Part shown: positions 236-40,486 of the stretch, piece after piece | How the letters are laid out: each line of letters opens with the position of its first letter | Position numbering within the stretch: the stretch's first letter is position 1 | IMG/VR virus record: IMGVR_UViG_3300022751_000022 | Coordinates: 1 to 43,703 of that record | DNA: 43,703 nt | Source: a virus | Reading direction: 5' to 3' (one strand) | The notes under the pieces: model-generated | The model's database searches: none | Told to the model about the DNA's origin: nothing | The model's input: only the letters and a program-made list of their open reading frames with translations | Translations under genes and position numbers: made by a program

Positions 236-295
236 TCGTTTCATTAAAATTAAATTATCTTCCTGAGTGATTTTAATTTTATTAGTTACATTCAT
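1..295 (-). CDS. DNA amino-methyltransferase, C-terminus cut by window edge
   Basis: N-terminal 98 residues of an N6-adenine (or N4-cytosine) methyltransferase. The catalytic DPPYG motif lies near residue 35, and the AdoMet-binding FxGxG-type motif of the missing half would follow, as in beta-class enzymes. The start codon overlaps the stop of the upstream gene (ATGA at 292-295). Residues encoded by 1-235 are almost identical to the complete copy at 39866-40486; only the first 20 or so differ. Joining base 1 to base 40206 would complete the gene as 636 nt (211 aa). It sits last in the early operon after ninG, a usual place for phage methyltransferases that protect virion DNA from host restriction. 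The enzyme class is clear; the target base and site are not. Confidence 0.85.
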   Translation of the reverse strand, partial: MNVTNKIKITQEDNLILMKRYPDNYFELAIVDPPYGILNKTKRGGDHKFNMKEYSQWDVKPNDEYFNELFRVSKNQIIWGGNYFSQIWLRSEYNKGFI

Positions 296-603
296 AATAT
301 TTTACGGTATTCAATTACACGATTATTTTTCTCAGCGTCTTTAATTCCGTATTCCATACCCTTAGAAATACCATAATCAGTATAAACAACTGTTTTGCTC
401 GCTTTTTCACCCCATTTTAAACCTGCAGTAATTCCTAAAAATCTATGCGGTTCAAAATCATCATCCAAACATTGCGTATAAAGCAAATGACTTGCGAATG
501 GAGCTTCGTTTCTATTAAAACAATCTAACATACATTTTCTAGCGTAATCAATATTACGTTCTCTGTCTCCTGCGAAAGGACTTTCTAAAATTACTAATTC
601 CAT
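292..603 (-). CDS. DUF7768-like (SLOG/deoxyribosyltransferase-like) protein
   Basis: 103 aa. It opens with an ESPFAGDRERN motif, then APFASHLLYTQ, and has a VVYTDYGISKGM segment near residue 75. These features match the DUF7768 family, small Rossmann-like proteins related to DUF4406 and nucleoside 2-deoxyribosyltransferases that are common in phage early operons. The family suggests nucleotide or nucleotide-sugar binding; the reaction is unknown. It follows a leader carrying a kissing-loop terminator element (604-721), and its stop overlaps the start of the methyltransferase gene, so the two are probably co-translated. Confidence 0.7.
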   Translation of the reverse strand: MELVILESPFAGDRERNIDYARKCMLDCFNRNEAPFASHLLYTQCLDDDFEPHRFLGITAGLKWGEKASKTVVYTDYGISKGMEYGIKDAEKNNRVIEYRKIL

Positions 604-704
604 AATTTGTATAAAATAAAAATGCCTTTATAAAATCCAATACCGTCCGACGGGTATCATCATTTAAAAAGGCTGTTCTGTTAAGTTCTATTGTCGGACG
701 AACT
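604..704 (-). ncRNA. Kissing-loop leader element A
   Basis: Untranslated leader between ninG and the DUF7768 gene. In transcription order, hairpin 1 (arms 700-704 and 684-688, 5 bp) has an 11-nt loop holding GTCCGAC. Hairpin 2 has outer arms 668-673 and 624-629 (GCCTTT/AAAGGC, plus 4 more pairs after a mismatch), an inner stem 653-657/640-644 and an apical loop holding GTCGGAC, followed by a T-rich run (ATTTTTATTTT). The two loops are complementary over 7 nt (8 if base 700 is freed). It looks like an attenuator or terminator whose loop can pair with the 5' hairpin. Same design as 6196-6293, 25567-25645 and 28848-28936. Confidence 0.7.
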
Positions 705-713
705 ATTATAATG

Positions 714-721
714 CAAATATA
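714..721 (-). promoter_or_regulatory. Bacteroidota -7 promoter element
   Basis: TATATTTG on the minus strand matches TAnnTTTG. No good -33 TTG lies at 17-19 nt. The expected transcript start (about 710) falls just before hairpin 1 of leader element A. Confidence 0.5.
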
Positions 722-3847: not shown

Positions 3848-4828
3848 TTATCTTCTAAAACTTTTCCCTTTAAATTCGATTATATTAAATATTTGCAATG
3901 CTCTATCGTACATGTGAGGTTCATATTTAACGCCTAAATTTTGAATTGCAATCCTTAAATTACCTGGATGCTCTTTGTGATAATTTAATGTTCCGTGCGT
4001 ACGATTAACGCGTTTTTCCTCTTTGATCTTAACAAAGATATCATCGTAACGATTTTCTAAAACAACCTGAATAACGTTCTTTAAACCGTAATTACTCGCT
4101 AATTGCTCTTTTGTAATATCATCGTAACAATAGTCTGACCTTGAATACTTGGTTAAAAAAGCCTGTTTGCTATCTTCTTTTGAAAGAAATTCGTATTCCG
4201 AAGCAATGGCACGACAACTTTTAAATTTAAACCTTAAACGCGCCCAATCGTTTACATTATTCCATCTATTATCAACGGCTATTTTATAATTGTGGTTTAT
4301 TAAATGTTCAAATGTTTGCATTATCGAACTTTTACCGTTGCCAAAATCACCAACAATTAAAATTCCTTTTTGAAAACTTGGAATTAATTCCCGATCATCA
4401 ATTTGTTTAATCAAACGTTCTGATTGAAAAAACGATTCATTGTTAGCGAAATACAAAACAACCGCCCTTATGTTTAAAATTGAATCTTCGGTTAATTCGA
4501 ATTTCTTTGCGTTAAGAGTTTCGAAAGCTTGCAAAAAACCGTATGATAAATTTTTATAATTAGGAATTAAGCCTTGAATAGTTTCAAATTCCGGTTTTTC
4601 TCCTTCACGAACAATTCTCATGTATTTTTTTCTTTCTTCTTCATCGATTTGCGGAGCTTTAAACTTATTCTCGTAGGATTCAATTTGCTTCAATTCAATT
4701 TCGGAAAGTGTTTTTTGCTCTTTATCCGGATTGGAAAAATTGTAATTATTGTATTGTTTTTGTAAATCGGTTAAATATTCATACTTTCTTATTCCGATCA
4801 TTTCTACTTTTATCTCTTGATTTTCCAT
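3848..4828 (-). CDS. AAA ATPase, DnaC-like helicase loader
   Basis: 326 aa. Walker A GDFGNGKSS is at residues 160-168 and a Walker B-like acidic segment YDDI follows near residue 236. An Arg-rich C-terminal region carries RTHGTLNYHKEHPGN, like the sensor/arginine-finger segments of DnaC/IstB-type ATPases. The first 110 residues form a helical domain that would contact the replisome organizer or DnaB. The start overlaps the stop of the replisome organizer gene (TAATG), which argues that the two are made together. The host DnaB helicase would be the client, since no phage helicase is visible. Confidence 0.8.
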   Translation of the reverse strand: MENQEIKVEMIGIRKYEYLTDLQKQYNNYNFSNPDKEQKTLSEIELKQIESYENKFKAPQIDEEERKKYMRIVREGEKPEFETIQGLIPNYKNLSYGFLQAFETLNAKKFELTEDSILNIRAVVLYFANNESFFQSERLIKQIDDRELIPSFQKGILIVGDFGNGKSSIMQTFEHLINHNYKIAVDNRWNNVNDWARLRFKFKSCRAIASEYEFLSKEDSKQAFLTKYSRSDYCYDDITKEQLASNYGLKNVIQVVLENRYDDIFVKIKEEKRVNRTHGTLNYHKEHPGNLRIAIQNLGVKYEPHMYDRALQIFNIIEFKGKSFRR

Positions 4829-5697
4829 TAGTTTGTATGAATTAAATTCCCTGATTCTATTTTTGTTGTTGAGGTTTTTTTATTATCATAATTACCTTCT
4901 AAAATCTTTATAAAATTTGTTTGGTTTAAAATCCAATCAAAATCTGCTTTCCATTCTCGATCATTTTCACCTTGCATAAAATTTGATTCTTTTGATTTTT
5001 CAATAACTTTCATAAAGTCTTCTTTAGAGAATTTTTTTATTAAGATTGAAATTTTCTTTTTCCTTGAATCAGATAAAACTTGAATTTTAGACATCGAACC
5101 ACAATTACTATTAAAAAACAATTTTAATTTATCATAATCAATTTTTAATTGTGGTGGGGTTGGATTTTTTAAATCCAACACATCCTCTTTAGTATCTTTT
5201 CTTATCTTATCTTCTTCTTTATCTAAGTCTTGTCTTATCTTGTCTTTATCTGCGATGTTTTGCGATCCTGTTGCGATCGGGTCGTTATCGGGGGGCGATA
5301 GCGGTGCGATAATTTTAGATAGCTCAATTGCCTTTTCCAAAGATATAGATTTTGAAATAAATTGATCGTAAATACCCTTGTGCCAGCGTTTTAGATTCCC
5401 AACAATTCCGCTTGTACTTTTATCTTTTTTATCTTCTTTTATTTCAAAAATTTGTTCGTCTAAAAAAGAAATGTAAATTTTTATCTCGTCAATCGTTATT
5501 ATTTTTTTTGATTTTAGAATGTTTAAATGATCTTCGTCAATTTCAATAATAGCATCTTCAATTGTCATTTCGCAATCTTTGACCCAATACATAGAACACA
5601 ATCTAATAAAACGAGCCTGAGTAACTTCGGGACACTTTTGTATTTTTCCCATCATCCAACGGCTAGGATTAAACTTAAACCATTTTATATCGTCCAT
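4828..5697 (-). CDS. Phage replisome organizer / replication initiator
   Basis: 289 aa. The N-terminal 90 residues (IKWFKFNPSRWMMGKI onward, with ARFIRLCSMYW) match the winged-helix domain of phage replisome organizers (DnaD/DUF4373-like). A polar linker spans residues about 115-180. The C-terminal domain has RKKKISILIKKFSKEDF and WKADFDWILNQTNFIKILEGNYDN, the classic initiator tail. The linker is encoded by a run of TGCGAT repeats and CTTATC repeats (5199-5310), so the origin probably lies inside the gene, as in lambda O. The DNA of this stretch is far more GC-rich than its surroundings. Confidence 0.82.
   Translation of the reverse strand: MDDIKWFKFNPSRWMMGKIQKCPEVTQARFIRLCSMYWVKDCEMTIEDAIIEIDEDHLNILKSKKIITIDEIKIYISFLDEQIFEIKEDKKDKSTSGIVGNLKRWHKGIYDQFISKSISLEKAIELSKIIAPLSPPDNDPIATGSQNIADKDKIRQDLDKEEDKIRKDTKEDVLDLKNPTPPQLKIDYDKLKLFFNSNCGSMSKIQVLSDSRKKKISILIKKFSKEDFMKVIEKSKESNFMQGENDREWKADFDWILNQTNFIKILEGNYDNKKTSTTKIESGNLIHTN
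5159..5179. repeat. 9-bp perfect inverted repeat
   Basis: GTTGGATTT at 5159-5167 is mirrored by AAATCCAAC at 5171-5179 with a 3-nt centre. It lies just left of the CTTATC and TGCGAT repeat arrays inside the replication initiator gene and may be part of the origin. Confidence 0.6.
5199..5310. other. Candidate replication origin with phased iterons
   Basis: Inside the initiator gene. TGCGAT occurs at 5251, 5261, 5272 and 5305, and GGCGAT at 5294, with a degenerate unit near 5283, so units repeat every 10-11 bp (one helical turn). To the left, 5199-5250 is pyrimidine-rich with repeated CTTATC/CTTTATC units, a possible unwinding region. The arrangement resembles the lambda origin inside gene O. 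It is inferred from pattern only. Confidence 0.55.
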
Positions 5698-5700
5698 ATC

Positions 5701-6177
5701 CTAACATTTAGAGTTATTAATCTTTTCCCACATCATTTTTTTTGCGTTGGTATCGCACCATTCATTTACAAAACTTCTTGCATCATCAATATTTGAATGC
5801 GCTTTTACGTGCCTAAATTCTATTTCTAATTGTTTTTTATACAAACGCCTCAGTTCTAAAAAAAGATTGCTAAATTGAATCCTTTTTGATGTTGAAAGAT
5901 TATATTTTGAAACATGTCTTTTATCGTTCTTTAAGTAGGCAATAGCGTTCAAAGAATCGGTATTTACGATTATCTTAGTAATACCTTTGTGAGATTTTAA
6001 AACGATGCTCAAAGCGTTTATAATACATTTTGCTTCGGCATCATCTGAAGTAGTACATTTTTTTCGAAACACTCCACTTTTGGTTATTTTAAAATCGTTA
6101 CAGACCGCCCAAAAAGCGTATCCACCGATTTTAAGTGATGTATGAAAACATGCATCTGTGTTTATTGTTACTAGCAT
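5701..6177 (-). CDS. RNase H-like nuclease
   Basis: 158 aa. The acidic residues of the RNase H fold are in place: NTDACFH near residue 7, DDAEAKCI near residue 47 (the glutamate), IVNTDSLNAIAYL near residue 71, and the C-terminal HVKAH plus WCDTNAKK near residues 121-144. It would remove RNA from RNA-DNA hybrids, for example primers, during phage replication. It is first in the replication operon after leader element B and ends 3 nt before the replisome organizer start. Confidence 0.8.
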   Translation of the reverse strand: MLVTINTDACFHTSLKIGGYAFWAVCNDFKITKSGVFRKKCTTSDDAEAKCIINALSIVLKSHKGITKIIVNTDSLNAIAYLKNDKRHVSKYNLSTSKRIQFSNLFLELRRLYKKQLEIEFRHVKAHSNIDDARSFVNEWCDTNAKKMMWEKINNSKC

Positions 6178-6195: not shown

Positions 6196-6293
6196 GAAAA
6201 ACCCTTAATAGTTTCGAGGTGGTGGCTCTACTCCTATTAAGGGTTTTAAATCGTGAATATGTTAATTCGTAATAAATCCACCACAGATATTAC
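6196..6293 (-). ncRNA. Kissing-loop leader element B
   Basis: Leader of the RNase H-replication operon. Hairpin 1 (6-bp arms 6288-6293 and 6269-6274) shows the loop sequence GTGGTGG. Hairpin 2 is a perfect 14-bp stem (6234-6247 with 6198-6211), followed by a short T-run. Inside it a 3-bp inner stem (GAG/CTC) presents a 7-nt loop that is exactly CCACCAC. The two loops are complementary over 7 nt. The element starts within a few bases of the expected transcript start and ends about 20 nt before the RNase H start. Confidence 0.78.
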
Positions 6294-6298
6294 ATTCA

Positions 6299-6306
6299 CA
6301 AATGTA
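6299..6306 (-). promoter_or_regulatory. Bacteroidota -7 promoter element
   Basis: TACATTTG on the minus strand matches TAnnTTTG. The nearest TTG is 22 nt upstream, longer than ideal. The expected start (about 6295) falls at the foot of leader hairpin 1. Confidence 0.55.
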
Positions 6307-7799: not shown

Positions 7800-8012
7800 T
7801 TATTTGTTATTCTCTAATTCTTGTTTTACTTCTTGCCAATAATGAATATTTCCGTTATATTCTTGCGACCAATTAAATGTGCTTGACATTAAATTTATTA
7901 TTTCTTCAACACATAGTATCGAACATTTTACCGATTCTTCGTAAGATATAGCCTCATCAAGTTTATCCCTAAATGATGTTATTAAATCTTCTGCTTTTTG
8001 TTTTGGTGTCAT
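7800..8012 (-). CDS. Small early protein, unknown
   Basis: 70 aa, almost all helical (TPKQKAEDLITSFRDKLD, then KCSILCVEEIINLM) with a C-terminal YWQEVKQELENNK. This is the common phage pattern for a short acidic alpha-hairpin protein. Function unknown. The start is preceded by an AACCAAAAA leader. Confidence 0.55.
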   Translation of the reverse strand: MTPKQKAEDLITSFRDKLDEAISYEESVKCSILCVEEIINLMSSTFNWSQEYNGNIHYWQEVKQELENNK

Positions 8013-11962: not shown

Positions 11963-12608
11963 TGGTTTTAGGTGTTAATTCTTCTCGTTTATCTTTGATC
12001 TCTTTTATAAAAACCTCGTTAGCGTGAAGAGTTTTGTTTTTATTATAAATCTGTGTTAGTTCTTTAGTGTCCTTTGCGTTTTGAACCTCTGAAATTGCAT
12101 TGATAAAAATTTCCTCGGGTGTTGGCGGCGGAGGCAAAGGAACTGCAGGAGTTGTTTGTCTTTGGTCGTTGTCGATATCGTCCTCATCCGTAGCAATGTG
12201 AAAGTATTTAAGTAAAAAATATCTTTCCGCATAAGTCAAAGCACTACCCAATCCTTTTTCCCAATCGTTTTGACCGTTTGCGCCAAAGCTGTTAACGTCT
12301 TTTTCTCCTGTTTCTGTATCGATCCAGGTAAATTGCATCATTACTTTTGAAAGTATTTCTGACTTGCTGCCGTTTTTTGTTTGATAATCTTGGCGAGTAT
12401 TTTCGATGCTTAAGACTTCTTGTTTTAGAATTAAGCCTAAATCGTTCATCATTGGCTTGACTTCGCCTAAAAGCTTATCGCCCGTGACGTATTTGTAGTT
12501 AAACGTAGCTTTGTCTTTTCCTAATCCGTTTATCTTTTGCTGAATGGTTAAAAGTTTTTGATATAGGTTTTTTTTCTGTTCTTTATTTTCTTCTTTTTCG
12601 GTTTTCAT
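11955..12608 (-). CDS. erf: ERF-family single-strand annealing protein
   Basis: 217 aa. The ERF core spans residues 15-140: LYQKLLTIQQKINGLGKDK, FNYKYVTGDKLLGEVKPMM, LGLILKQEV and the characteristic GLGSALTYAERYFLLKYFHIA with following DEDD. ERF proteins anneal complementary single strands during phage recombination and genome circularisation. A proline-rich linker (residues 153-163) leads to a C-terminal helical region. With NinG it makes a plausible recombination pathway. Confidence 0.88.
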   Translation of the reverse strand: MKTEKEENKEQKKNLYQKLLTIQQKINGLGKDKATFNYKYVTGDKLLGEVKPMMNDLGLILKQEVLSIENTRQDYQTKNGSKSEILSKVMMQFTWIDTETGEKDVNSFGANGQNDWEKGLGSALTYAERYFLLKYFHIATDEDDIDNDQRQTTPAVPLPPPPTPEEIFINAISEVQNAKDTKELTQIYNKNKTLHANEVFIKEIKDKREELTPKTNE

Positions 12609-25558: not shown

Positions 25559-25566
25559 TATATTTG
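25559..25566 (+). promoter_or_regulatory. Bacteroidota -7 promoter element for HNH gene
   Basis: TATATTTG on the plus strand, a full match to TAnnTTTG. The -33 region at the right distance reads TTTA rather than TTG. It lets the endonuclease be transcribed against the late operon. Confidence 0.6.
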
Positions 25567-25645
25567 TGTTGTCGAATGCAAGCGATATAACAATTTAATA
25601 AATTCTCCCTTTTGAGTGCCTTGCATCACTTTTTAGGGAGTTTTT
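25567..25645 (+). ncRNA. Kissing-loop leader element C
   Basis: Leader of the HNH gene. Hairpin 1 (25567-25574 with 25583-25592; 8 bp including one G-U and a 2-nt bulge) shows the loop ATGCAAG. Hairpin 2 has outer arms CTCCCT/AGGGAG (25605-25610, 25635-25640), inner stem GAGTG/CACTT, and an 8-nt apical loop that contains CTTGCAT. The loops are complementary over 7 nt. TTTTTG follows, 6 nt before ATG. Confidence 0.78.
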
Positions 25646-25651
25646 GTATTT

Positions 25652-26182
25652 ATGGAAGAATGGAGAAATATTAAAGAATATGAAGGATTATATCAGGTTA
25701 GTGATTTAGGTAATGTAAAAAGTTTGCCAAGAATAGCCAAAGCGCCTAGAGGACTAGAAAGATTTATAAAAGAAAGGGTATTGAAATATTCTGAAAATAA
25801 AGGCGGTTATCTAGCTGTTGTGTTGTGTAACGAAGGCATAATGTCAACTAAATATATTCATCAACTAGTAGCTGAATGTTTTTTAAATCATAATTATGAT
25901 AATAAAAATTTAGTCATAAATCATAAAGACTTTAATAGACAAAACAATAAATTGGATAATTTAGAAATAGTTACATTTAGAACCAATACTAATAAAAAGT
26001 ACTTAAAATCTTCAAGTAAATACACTGGTGTTTTTTGGATAAAGAAAAACAATAAATGGATGGCTAGTATTAGAATAAATAATCGTAATAAATATTTAGG
26101 TTCTTTTAAAGACGAGTTTAAAGCGCATTTAGCATATGAACAAGAACTAAAAAATCTACTTCAAAACGAGGTTAAGCCTTAA
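25652..26182 (+). CDS. NUMOD4-HNH homing endonuclease
   Basis: 176 aa in three parts: a NUMOD4 module (EEWRNIKEYEGLYQVSDLGNVKSLPR type, residues 2-30), an HNH nuclease core (HQLVAECFL, then VINHKDFNRQNNKLDNLEIV near residues 88-108) and an AP2-like DNA-binding domain (YTGVFWIKKNNKWMASIRI, YLGSFKDEFKAH). It is free-standing, on the opposite strand to the late genes, and overlaps the 3' end of the tail terminator gene by 27 nt. It is a selfish element that could also give the phage an advantage over related phages. Confidence 0.9.
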   Translation: MEEWRNIKEYEGLYQVSDLGNVKSLPRIAKAPRGLERFIKERVLKYSENKGGYLAVVLCNEGIMSTKYIHQLVAECFLNHNYDNKNLVINHKDFNRQNNKLDNLEIVTFRTNTNKKYLKSSSKYTGVFWIKKNNKWMASIRINNRNKYLGSFKDEFKAHLAYEQELKNLLQNEVKP

Positions 26183-28097: not shown

Positions 28098-28394
28098 TTA
28101 TCTATAACTCAAATTTGCAAATGTTTTCCCTCCTTCTGTCATTATGAAATAAGTTAAATCCTTGTTTAAAGGGATTGCTTTACCACCATCATGAACAACA
28201 AATGCGTAAATCTGCTTAGTGTTTATATCTGATTCATCATCATTATCCGCGACATAAGTCCTTTCAAATACTGCGTTAAACATATTGGAAAACTCATTAT
28301 AATTCAATTCTCTGTGTATGAATTGGTAATCGCCTCCTAAACTTTTGTTTAGTTCTGTTCTGTCTGAATATACTGATCTTAAAATAAAACCCAT
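28098..28394 (-). CDS. Small virion-region protein, unknown
   Basis: 98 aa, one alpha/beta domain with acidic middle (VADNDDESDINTKQIYAFVVH) and a strand end (YFIMTEGGKTFANLSYR). Between the structured leader gene and the connector, so it may be a minor head or neck protein. No family recognised. Confidence 0.55.
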   Translation of the reverse strand: MGFILRSVYSDRTELNKSLGGDYQFIHRELNYNEFSNMFNAVFERTYVADNDDESDINTKQIYAFVVHDGGKAIPLNKDLTYFIMTEGGKTFANLSYR

Positions 28395-28433
28395 AATGTA
28401 TGTATGTATTTATTTATGTATAATCCCTACTCG

Positions 28434-28613
28434 TTAGCTTTTCGGGTTCCGCTTTTTATTGTTGTAGTTTTGCTTTAATTCCTTCGTTTCTTTTTTAATT
28501 TCCGATACTTCTCCAACACCAACACGAAGCAAATAACCGCCTCTTTGCTCTGTTACTTCAATCGTATCTCCCGCAGTATGATCCAAATGATCTTTTAATA
28601 ATTTGACTTTCAT
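28434..28613 (-). CDS. Small head-region protein, KOW-like
   Basis: 59 aa. The start VKLLKDHLDHTAGDTIEVTEQRGGYLL type sequence (residues 2-28) matches the short phage-head 'V.LLKD..G...GD.IEV...RA..L...GV' pattern, followed by a charged helix (EIKKETKELKQNYNNKKR). Such proteins occur near capsid genes as decoration or accessory proteins. It is the first gene after the structured RNA at 28630-28782. Confidence 0.55.
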   Translation of the reverse strand: MKVKLLKDHLDHTAGDTIEVTEQRGGYLLRVGVGEVSEIKKETKELKQNYNNKKRNPKS

Positions 28614-28794: not shown

Positions 28795-28824
28795 TTGCGT
28801 ATTTAAAAATAATTGTTACATTTA
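28795..28824 (+). promoter_or_regulatory. Bacteroidota promoter for plus-strand cassette
   Basis: TTG at 28795-28797, a 19-nt spacer and TACATTTA at 28817-28824, one base from the TAnnTTTG consensus. It would drive the two plus-strand genes independently of the late operon. Confidence 0.6.
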
Positions 28825-28847
28825 CAATCTGAAATAAGAACACATAA

Positions 28848-28936
28848 ATATTTACCAGAAGTCGGAAGCTGATAAGTATAAAAACACAAACAAGACTCTT
28901 TAGAACTGCCGACTCAGTTTTATTGGGTCTTTTTTA
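28848..28936 (+). ncRNA. Kissing-loop leader element D
   Basis: Hairpin 1: 28848-28858 with 28869-28879 (10 pairs, one mismatch), 10-nt loop containing AGTCGG. Hairpin 2: outer AAGACTC/GGGTCTT (28892-28898, 28925-28931), inner AACTG/CAGTT (28904-28908, 28915-28919), and a 6-nt apical loop that is exactly CCGACT. The two loops are complementary over 6 nt. A T-run (TTTTTT) follows, 13 nt before the ATG at 28949. This is the clearest member of the family. Confidence 0.82.
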
Positions 28937-28948
28937 ATTTATATAGTT

Positions 28949-29230
28949 ATGAAAACAGTTAAAATTATTATTACATTATCAGTATTTTTATTATTAACGT
29001 CATGTGCTGATGTATCGCCAAATGTAAGCGAATGCGTTACGCCAGAAGCTTATGGTTTCTGGTTTGGATTATGGCATGGGATTGTTTCTCCAATATCATT
29101 TATTGGAAGTTTATTCATTGATGATATTGCATTTTACGCATACAATAACAATGGAGGTTGGTATAATTTCGGTTTTGTATTAGGCGCTGGAATATTAGGT
29201 TTTGGCGGTTCTCATTCCTCTAAAAAGTAA
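28949..29230 (+). CDS. Small lipoprotein, moron candidate
   Basis: 93 aa. Signal peptide with lipobox (ITLSVFLLLTSCAD; the Cys is residue 19). The rest carries GFWFGLWHGIVSPISFIGSLF and NNNGGWYNFGFVLGAGIL, a pattern found in small bacterial membrane lipoproteins of unknown role. Carried by a phage on its own promoter, it may alter the host envelope, for example to exclude other phages. That role is inference. Confidence 0.72.
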   Translation: MKTVKIIITLSVFLLLTSCADVSPNVSECVTPEAYGFWFGLWHGIVSPISFIGSLFIDDIAFYAYNNNGGWYNFGFVLGAGILGFGGSHSSKK

Positions 29231-30730: not shown

Positions 30731-31069
30731 TTATTTAGTATCATCCCTTATTCGCGCATTATATTCACCAGGATAATTTTCTTTTAATTTTAAATAATCG
30801 TAATCTTTATTAAAAGACCAACCTACATCTGAAATATAATTAATTTCTTTTTCGTAGGATTCGTCTGTAATTAATTCACATTTAAAAAATTCTCTCGCCT
30901 TGTGAACAATTAATTTTTCTACATTTTCAACAATAAATAAATTTTGCGTCTCCGGAAAATTAGCGTTAATTGTTGTTTTTGTTTTTTGCTTCGGCTCAGA
31001 TGTAAAACTGAATACCGCTAAACTAAACATAAAGATTAGTAAAGTGAAAAGCCCTTTAAGAAATTTCAT
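30731..31069 (-). CDS. Secreted or periplasmic small protein
   Basis: 112 aa with an N-terminal signal peptide (LKGLFTLLIFMFSLAVFSFT) and a charged, Lys/Glu-rich mature part. It sits right after the capsid gene but has its own -7 box (TATATTTG, 4 nt before ATG) and a terminator on each side, so it is a single-gene unit. It may act on the host envelope. No family recognised. Confidence 0.6.
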   Translation of the reverse strand: MKFLKGLFTLLIFMFSLAVFSFTSEPKQKTKTTINANFPETQNLFIVENVEKLIVHKAREFFKCELITDESYEKEINYISDVGWSFNKDYDYLKLKENYPGEYNARIRDDTK

Positions 31070-31073
31070 AATT

Positions 31074-31081
31074 CAAATATA
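31074..31081 (-). promoter_or_regulatory. -7 element with leaderless spacing
   Basis: TATATTTG followed by 4 nt and ATG (31069). It comes immediately after the capsid terminator. Confidence 0.55.
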
Positions 31082-31088
31082 AATAAAA

Positions 31089-31114
31089 AACTCGATACTT
31101 TTACATATCGAGTT
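31089..31114 (-). terminator. Intrinsic terminator after capsid gene
   Basis: 9-bp stem AACTCGATA/TATCGAGTT (31089-31097 with 31106-31114), 8-nt loop, T6 run on the minus strand. It separates capsid transcription from the following single gene. Confidence 0.88.
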
Positions 31115-31134
31115 AATTTATAATTCAAATTCTA

Positions 31135-39866: not shown

Positions 39867-40486
39867 TAAAATAGTTTTTGTTGTCCTATGTGGTTTGTTA
39901 TTCTTTTTACAGCTGAATTATAATAATCAGGATCCAATTCGCATGCGGTCAGCTCAAAACCGTAATCATGACAAGCTATCGCAATACTTCCAGAGCCCAA
40001 ATGAGTATCTAATATTTTATCTCCTTGTTTTGCATACATTTTTAAAAGCCATTCATAAAGTTCAATTGGTTTTTGAGTCGGATGAATTTTATTTCTATTT
40101 TTTCTAACGCTATATCTAAAAATTTTTGATGGTTTATCTAGAGATGACCAAGCCATTTCTGCCATCGAAAAATTATTTAAGCTTTCAGGCTGATTTTTAT
40201 CCCATATGATAAAACCTTTATTGTATTCACTTCTTAACCAGATTTGACTAAAATAATTTCCTCCCCAAATAATTTGATTTTTTGACACTCTAAATAATTC
40301 ATTAAAGTATTCATCATTAGGTTTTACATCCCACTGACTATATTCTTTCATATTAAATTTATGGTCACCACCTCTTTTTGTCTTATTTAAAATTCCATAA
40401 GGCGGATCAACAATTGCAAGTTCAAAGTAATTGTCAGGATACCTTGCCATTAATTTCATATTGTTCTCTCTAGTAACTGTAATCAT
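39866..40486 (-). CDS. DNA amino-methyltransferase, complete copy
   Basis: 206 aa from the ATG at 40486 (an upstream in-frame ATG at 40522 would overlap the endonuclease gene). The catalytic DPPYG is near residue 25, the target loop region follows (NKTKRGGDHKFN), and the C-terminal part carries HPTQKP, then ILDTHLGSGSIAIAC with the AdoMet site and ELDPDYY. This is beta-class order, N6-adenine or N4-cytosine. It shares 1-235 with the truncated left copy. Downstream of a restriction gene, it may protect the second strand of an asymmetric site. Confidence 0.85.
   Translation of the reverse strand: MITVTRENNMKLMARYPDNYFELAIVDPPYGILNKTKRGGDHKFNMKEYSQWDVKPNDEYFNELFRVSKNQIIWGGNYFSQIWLRSEYNKGFIIWDKNQPESLNNFSMAEMAWSSLDKPSKIFRYSVRKNRNKIHPTQKPIELYEWLLKMYAKQGDKILDTHLGSGSIAIACHDYGFELTACELDPDYYNSAVKRITNHIGQQKLF
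40207..40441. repeat. Right copy of methyltransferase repeat
   Basis: 235 bp, one mismatch to 1-235. The exact identity over 127 bp (40207-40333) followed by a break is the signature of an assembly graph overlap. The junction of phage and restriction-modification sequences falls here if the window is a composite. Confidence 0.95.

Follow-up and report, generated by a model that had tools for sequence, protein, structure and literature searches.

Four leaders with complementary hairpin loops

The window, that is, the whole 43.7-kb stretch of DNA analysed here, is an IMG/VR virus record with a GC content of 31% that carries terminase, portal and structural genes, and some uncultivated viral contigs are closely related to it. 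An initial annotation had drawn attention to one leader, here called leader D, in which the loops of two successive hairpins appeared to be complementary. The following features were assigned to leader D and the gene behind it:

28817-28824 (+), best -7 box, TACATTTA, unusually far from hairpin 1
28848-28879 (+), hairpin 1, with AGTCGG in the loop (28860-28865)
28892-28931 (+), terminator-like hairpin 2, with a 6-nt apical loop CCGACT (28909-28914) and T6 at 28930-28935
28949-29230 (+), gene for a small lipoprotein-like protein (phrog_30702), a relative of gp185 of Cellulophaga phage phi17:2

The loops AGTCGG and CCGACT are exactly complementary, and the stems of hairpin 2 (AAGACTC/GGGTCTT outside, AACTG/CAGTT inside), the T6 run and the ATG at 28949 were confirmed as first described. 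The same design had been reported, with different bases, in three further leaders of the window; these were also found (leaders A, B and C), and exact loop complements of 6-7 nt are present across all four:

714-721 (-), leader A, -7 box TATATTTG
684-704 (-), leader A, hairpin 1 (AGTTC/GAACT), kissing sequence GTCCGAC (693-699)
624-673 (-), leader A, hairpin 2, loop GTCGGAC (645-651), internal U.U/G.A/A.G loop, T5 after it
292-603 (-), gene behind leader A, DUF7768 protein
25559-25566 (+), leader B, -7 box TATATTTG
25571-25586 (+), leader B, hairpin 1 (GTCG/CGAT), loop of A plus ATGCAAG (25576-25582); the stem starts at the expected +1 (TSS distance from PMC9723704)
25605-25640 (+), leader B, hairpin 2, loop CTTGCAT (25620-25626), T5 after it
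25652-26182 (+), gene behind leader B, NUMOD4/HNH homing-type endonuclease
6299-6306 (-), leader C, -7 box TACATTTG
6269-6293 (-), leader C, hairpin 1 (GTAATA/TATTAC), kissing sequence GTGGTGG (6278-6284)
6200-6245 (-), leader C, hairpin 2, loop CCACCAC (6219-6225), AGUA/GAA internal loop of loop-E type, T5 after it
3848-6177 (-), genes behind leader C, RNase H, O/DnaD-like replication initiator and DnaC-like helicase loader

The position of the promoter differs in one leader: in leaders A, B and C, and in nearly all relatives, 8-16 nt separate the end of the box from the kissing sequence, which places hairpin 1 right at the 5' end, whereas in leader D hairpin 1 begins 23 nt, and the kissing sequence 35 nt, downstream of the best box. 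Leader D is the outlier in this promoter distance, in its longer stem 1 and in having only six kissing pairs. The genome is mostly minus-strand; leaders B and D lie on plus-strand islands with divergent genes upstream of both, and leader A has a co-directional gene (731-1357) directly upstream.

Several other elements were seen around leader D and its relatives. Phages phi17:2 and phi4:1 of Cellulophaga (145 kb) also carry the lipoprotein-like gene (28949-29230, +), there without a leader, and its occurrence suggests a travelling accessory gene. At locus L009, a degenerate tRNA-like sequence with a TAAGTTTG box before it, in which ARAGORN called no tRNA, lies just upstream of a D-type leader (AGTCGG) at 12314-12413 (-), and at locus L004 another tRNA-like or otherwise structured stretch, GTTGGTGCAAATCCAGCTCAGACCAC, precedes a homologue of the lipoprotein gene, about 150 nt before position 7953. 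In the window itself, 28424-28455 (-) matched the Rfam cis-regulatory RNA DUF805b (RF02914, 40 bits) about 30 nt upstream of an ORF at 28098-28394 (-); neither Pfam nor PHROG yielded a family for the protein of this ORF. DUF805b, of which the window phage has one copy, resembles the leaders as a short cis-regulatory element ahead of a gene, but it is 35 nt long and has neither a kiss nor a terminator; membership of the leaders in it was ruled out, as RF02914 matches none of the four. A long AT-rich intergenic inverted repeat at 31058-31121 (+), to which C0465 matched below threshold, is probably a terminator.

Shuffled controls and spread of the leaders

A custom scan searched for two successive hairpins, the second with a T-run, in which the first loop contains a Watson-Crick match of at least 6 nt to the second hairpin's apical loop. 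The score was the sum of the hairpin 1, hairpin 2 and duplex energies, and the thresholds were fixed after leaders A-D had been seen. The four leaders scored -28.5 (A), -31.6 (B), -35.3 (C) and -29.4 kcal/mol (D). The initial annotation had named dinucleotide-shuffled controls as a check, and these never matched the real leaders: 40 shuffles of the whole window, both strands included, gave a best score of -25.4 kcal/mol and none at or below -26, and none of 1000 shuffles per leader equalled the real one.

We then applied the scan to 131 AT-rich loci and required a score at or below -22, a flavobacterial -7 box at a distance of 7-24 nt from the kissing sequence, and an ORF immediately downstream. 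This yielded 69 matches in the real loci and 0 in the same loci after shuffling; as the loci had been collected from phage records and by way of neighbours of the nuclease, RNase H, DUF7768, lipoprotein and terminase types, the abundance and gene spectrum among them are biased. After removal of near-duplicates, 63 leaders with 45 different kissing sequences remained; at least one (L056) looks like a chance match, for two (L103 and L122) a start codon within the hairpin had been picked, and the geometry statistics below refer to n = 61. A co-directional ORF follows immediately behind 57 of the 59 strong promoter-flanked elements. Besides IMG/VR contigs, five Flavobacteriaceae phages in culture carry such leaders: FCV-1 of Flavobacterium columnare (two leaders, one of them at 40354-40459), P12002L and P12002S of Polaribacter, phi10:1 of Cellulophaga and 11b of Flavobacterium. 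One leader was located on a 5-kb contig of a Bacteroidales MAG. The architecture is common to many flavobacterial viruses and is family-wide rather than specific to the window.

Outside these loci, 640 kb of flavobacterial chromosome gave no match at or below -26 with promoter and ORF, and an insensitive covariance-model search of 399 Flavobacteriaceae genomes, in which 10 candidates per genome were scored, gave none either; the flanks of 27 HNH homologues in those genomes were free of leaders. The scan detected no leader in Cellulophaga phages phi17:2, phi38:1 (first 50 kb) and phi18:1, Flavobacterium phage 6H, Bacteroides phage B124-14 or Parabacteroides phage PF672P1 (first 50 kb). High-scoring matches in three GC-rich distant contigs (L023, L025 and L026) were rejected as chance, lying within coding sequence with no promoter. 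An alignment of nine HNH leaders was too diverse for scanning the collection.

Anatomy of the leader

The distance from the end of the -7 box to the kissing sequence is 8-16 nt in 60 of 61 leaders, and TTG at a spacing of 19 and an A-tract are enriched upstream of the box. Given this spacing and the position of the Flavobacterium psychrophilum -7 box at -12 to -5 (PMC9723704), stem 1 should start at about +1. Loop 1 of the commonest type consists of one purine and seven kissing nucleotides and loop 2 of one nucleotide and seven, a layout that would suit a kiss helix stacked on both stems; in a second type, exemplified by leader A, the kissing sequence comes first and an A/U-rich stretch lies behind it.

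Hairpin 2 is built from an outer stem of 7-10 bp, a usually small and symmetric internal loop, an inner stem of 3-5 bp and the kissing loop, and a T-run of 4-10 follows it in 60 of 61 leaders, which bears out its earlier description as terminator-like. The internal loop is tandem-GA-like in about half of the leaders, a rough count from loose automatic classing. An AGUA/GAA loop of the loop-E/sarcin-ricin type was found in leader C, L007, L120, L124, L106, L061 and FCV-1, at a recurring position three to five pairs below the kissing loop, where others have tandem-GA; L117 and L133, and by inspection leader B, have a U-rich loop instead.

From the end of loop 2 to the U-run the median distance is 16 nt, which is about the length of RNA hidden by the polymerase, so the kiss may become possible just at the termination decision. 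The ATG lies 3-7 nt past the U-run in many nuclease leaders and 12-42 nt past it in others. The elements combine a promoter, a leader and a GC stem with a U-run before the start codon, as an attenuator does.

Covariation of the kiss

Seventeen leaders, mostly before nuclease genes, align nearly without gaps. Pairing in this alignment amounts to 97% in stem 1, 96% in the kiss helix, 93% in the outer stem and 98% in the inner stem, two-sided changes occur in 19 of 21 pairs overall and in 7 of 7 pairs of the kiss helix, and sliding the partners by 1-3 columns lowers pairing from 95% to 30-48%. Because the scan selects for complementarity, it cannot by itself prove covariation, and since the rows of the alignment came from the scan, the stems are the more independent evidence in it.

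A covariance model was therefore built from the same alignment with the hairpin pairs only, so that it was blind to the kiss. It returned 48 matches at E <= 0.1, of which 31 (23 distinct) lay outside the training set, and a loop-loop match of at least 6 nt was present in 28 of these 31 new leaders versus 18 of 908 swapped loop pairs; among the other three, L134 has a mismatch, and in L112 and L114 the loop was cut off by the model. Two leaders of one orthologous gene, L040 and L041, carry ATTGTCGGAT/ATCCGACAAT and ATTGTGGGAT/ATCCCACAAT, respectively, a paired substitution within the kiss, and their stem 1 is likewise compensated. Compensatory changes between the two loops, as expected of a kissing-loop RNA, were thus found. 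The initial annotation had read covariation from four unrelated leaders and had proposed a covariance-model search for homologues with compensatory changes; on real homologues, that reading was upheld. Judged by these sequence comparisons, all four helices (stem 1, kiss, outer and inner) covary, and loop-loop kissing is well supported.

Covariation also bears on the weakest alternative, that no RNA structure exists and the pattern is chance or a protein-bound DNA inverted repeat, which we regard as hardly credible: the loop sequences do form inverted repeats, spaced by about 40 nt and close behind a promoter, but shuffles yielded zero matches, the elements always face promoter and gene in the same way, covariation in the flanking stems is independent, and 45 different repeat sequences exclude a single operator protein. 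A DNA operator was ruled out by the same 45 sequences together with the stem covariation.

Genes behind the leaders

Among 45 downstream proteins scanned, 11 carry the NUMOD4 domain of HNH endonucleases, and others are of GIY-YIG, RNase H, VapE/DUF3987, helicase and DUF7768 types, with many left without assignment; the P12002L leader precedes a gene annotated as a primosomal protein. An IscB-type guide RNA was ruled out, as the nucleases are NUMOD4/HNH proteins of about 170 aa and leaders also front non-nucleases. The GTCCGAC leader type stands before three different genes and the ATGCAAG type before both HNH and GIY-YIG genes, and some orthologous genes have no leader; the leader therefore behaves as an exchangeable cassette. 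Kissing sequences were shared between leaders on one contig in 0 of 14 pairs, which is no evidence for selected orthogonality since only 0.17 would be expected.

Transcription attenuation in cis as the preferred reading

Architecture, promoter, helix covariation and placement before genes emerge from the sequences themselves. We consider it somewhat better than an even bet (probability roughly 0.55) that the leaders attenuate transcription in cis ahead of replication operons, homing nucleases and moron genes, with the kiss controlling termination. Transcription would start at a host sigma-A promoter (TTG, about 19 nt, TAnnTTTG), and the first nucleotides of the RNA would form the 5' arm of hairpin 1. 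An A/U-rich linker would follow and then hairpin 2, whose outer stem of 7-10 bp ahead of 4-10 U would have the anatomy of an intrinsic terminator. With the polymerase at the U-run, loop 2 would just have left the exit channel and could kiss loop 1, and stem 1, the kiss helix and the inner stem could stack as one rod. Whether the polymerase stops at about +95 to +110 or reads through into the gene would be decided at the kiss, which might either promote or prevent termination. The leaders head units, for example the replication genes that follow leader C, and would have a regulatory role there.

Because the geometry is kept while the kissing letters drift freely, we propose that a reader, be it the polymerase or a phage or host factor, senses shape. 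A bolder version, which we put forward tentatively, is a sequence-free, shape-read switch in which the kissed hairpins form a rigid rod recognised by the polymerase or a phage factor, with several leaders making up one regulon and cassettes swapped between genes. Some observations weigh against cis attenuation. An RNAalifold consensus of the aligned leaders contained only three nested helices and no competing antiterminator helix, so there is no sign of the classical attenuator with two states; an alternative helix formed kinetically or stabilised by a protein may exist beyond this consensus. Hairpin 2 by itself resembles a strong terminator whose strength is not correlated with that of the kiss, and some orthologous genes have no leader.

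The initial annotation had offered a put-like cis antiterminator as the alternative to attenuation. As a processive antiterminator, the kissed RNA would stay on the polymerase so that hairpin 2 and later terminators are ignored without any factor, which would be a special case of cis attenuation with the kiss favouring read-through. We think this unlikely. HK022 put is a phage-borne cis RNA of about 70 nt that forms two stem-loops just behind an early promoter and affects termination (PMC9378689), and the leaders, too, have two stem-loops right behind a phage promoter, on this scale of about 70 nt, as in putL; the replication genes and other units downstream and the conserved shape and non-canonical internal loops would also fit. 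However, put is conserved in sequence, has no sequence likeness to the leaders and is described without a kiss (PMC9378689), whereas the leaders' loops pair with free sequence; and since put contains no terminator, whereas in 60 of 61 leaders a run of 4-10 U comes after hairpin 2, "put-like" can denote a functional analogy only.

Equally improbable, in our view, is a constitutive role in which the kiss only strengthens the terminator and the gene is insulated from upstream transcription, with low constant read-through. The stems and U-runs are strong, and leader A lies right behind the co-directional gene 731-1357, whose transcript hairpin 2 could end; leaders B and D, by contrast, follow divergent genes, and it would be wasteful to set a promoter right ahead of a strong terminator that is not regulated. 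The outer stems look sufficient alone, and the strengths of kiss and hairpin 2 neither correlate nor compensate for each other, which disfavours simple reinforcement.

Control of mRNA stability or translation, with the kissed fold shielding the 5' end or hiding the start codon and the U-run being incidental, is a poor candidate. Hairpin 1 is 5'-terminal, and an ATG 3-7 nt past the U-run, as in many nuclease leaders, is near enough for an effect on ribosome binding, but the other ATGs are 12-42 nt away, and 60 of 61 leaders have the U-run immediately after the outer stem, as is typical of terminators. Very unlikely is a trans-acting small RNA, a product of about 100 nt folded at both ends, with the gene served by read-through. 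Its own promoter, terminator and compact fold would suit such a product; against it, a co-directional ORF is tightly coupled to the leader (57 of 59), including on the opposite-strand islands of B and D, the loops occupy each other, and the sequence differs in every leader.

Comparison with known systems

Rfam 15 gave no match to the window leaders at the gathering score, and at E up to 5 only a sub-threshold SNORA12 match over leader C on the antisense strand; nine leader-bearing loci gave no Rfam match at E up to 1. A search of mostly open-access literature found no description of a kissing-hairpin terminator leader. The earlier statement that no described family has this architecture thus agrees with Rfam and the literature searched.

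Like classical attenuators, the attenuators proposed here consist of a promoter, a short leader and a GC stem with a U-run before the first gene, but their terminator loop pairs with the loop of a 5' hairpin and no competing antiterminator helix was seen. Guanidine-II and cobalamin riboswitches share loop-loop pairing between two leader hairpins; in the cobalamin class, the partners are an aptamer loop and the hairpin of the expression platform (PMC10907184). Both have conserved ligand-binding sequences, whereas the leaders have no conserved loop and several unrelated internal-loop types; with 45 loop sequences and no conserved ligand-binding sequence, a riboswitch was ruled out. ColE1 RNAI/RNAII have fully complementary 7-nt loops recognisable by their shape (by Rop), as the leaders might be; there two RNAs meet in trans, whereas the leaders carry both loops in one RNA. 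Kissing-hairpin leaders would be a new form of leader-RNA control, with a fair chance of a distinct mechanism.

They appear as a widespread structured-RNA family that sequence-based searches missed, little but the geometry being conserved. Cultured carriers (FCV-1, 11b, P12002L and phi10:1) make the function of the leader testable now. Little is known about how Bacteroidota phages regulate their genes; if the kiss gates termination, the leaders would add a level of RNA-based control over replication and homing genes in these phages and would supply attenuators that differ in kissing sequence for use in their hosts.
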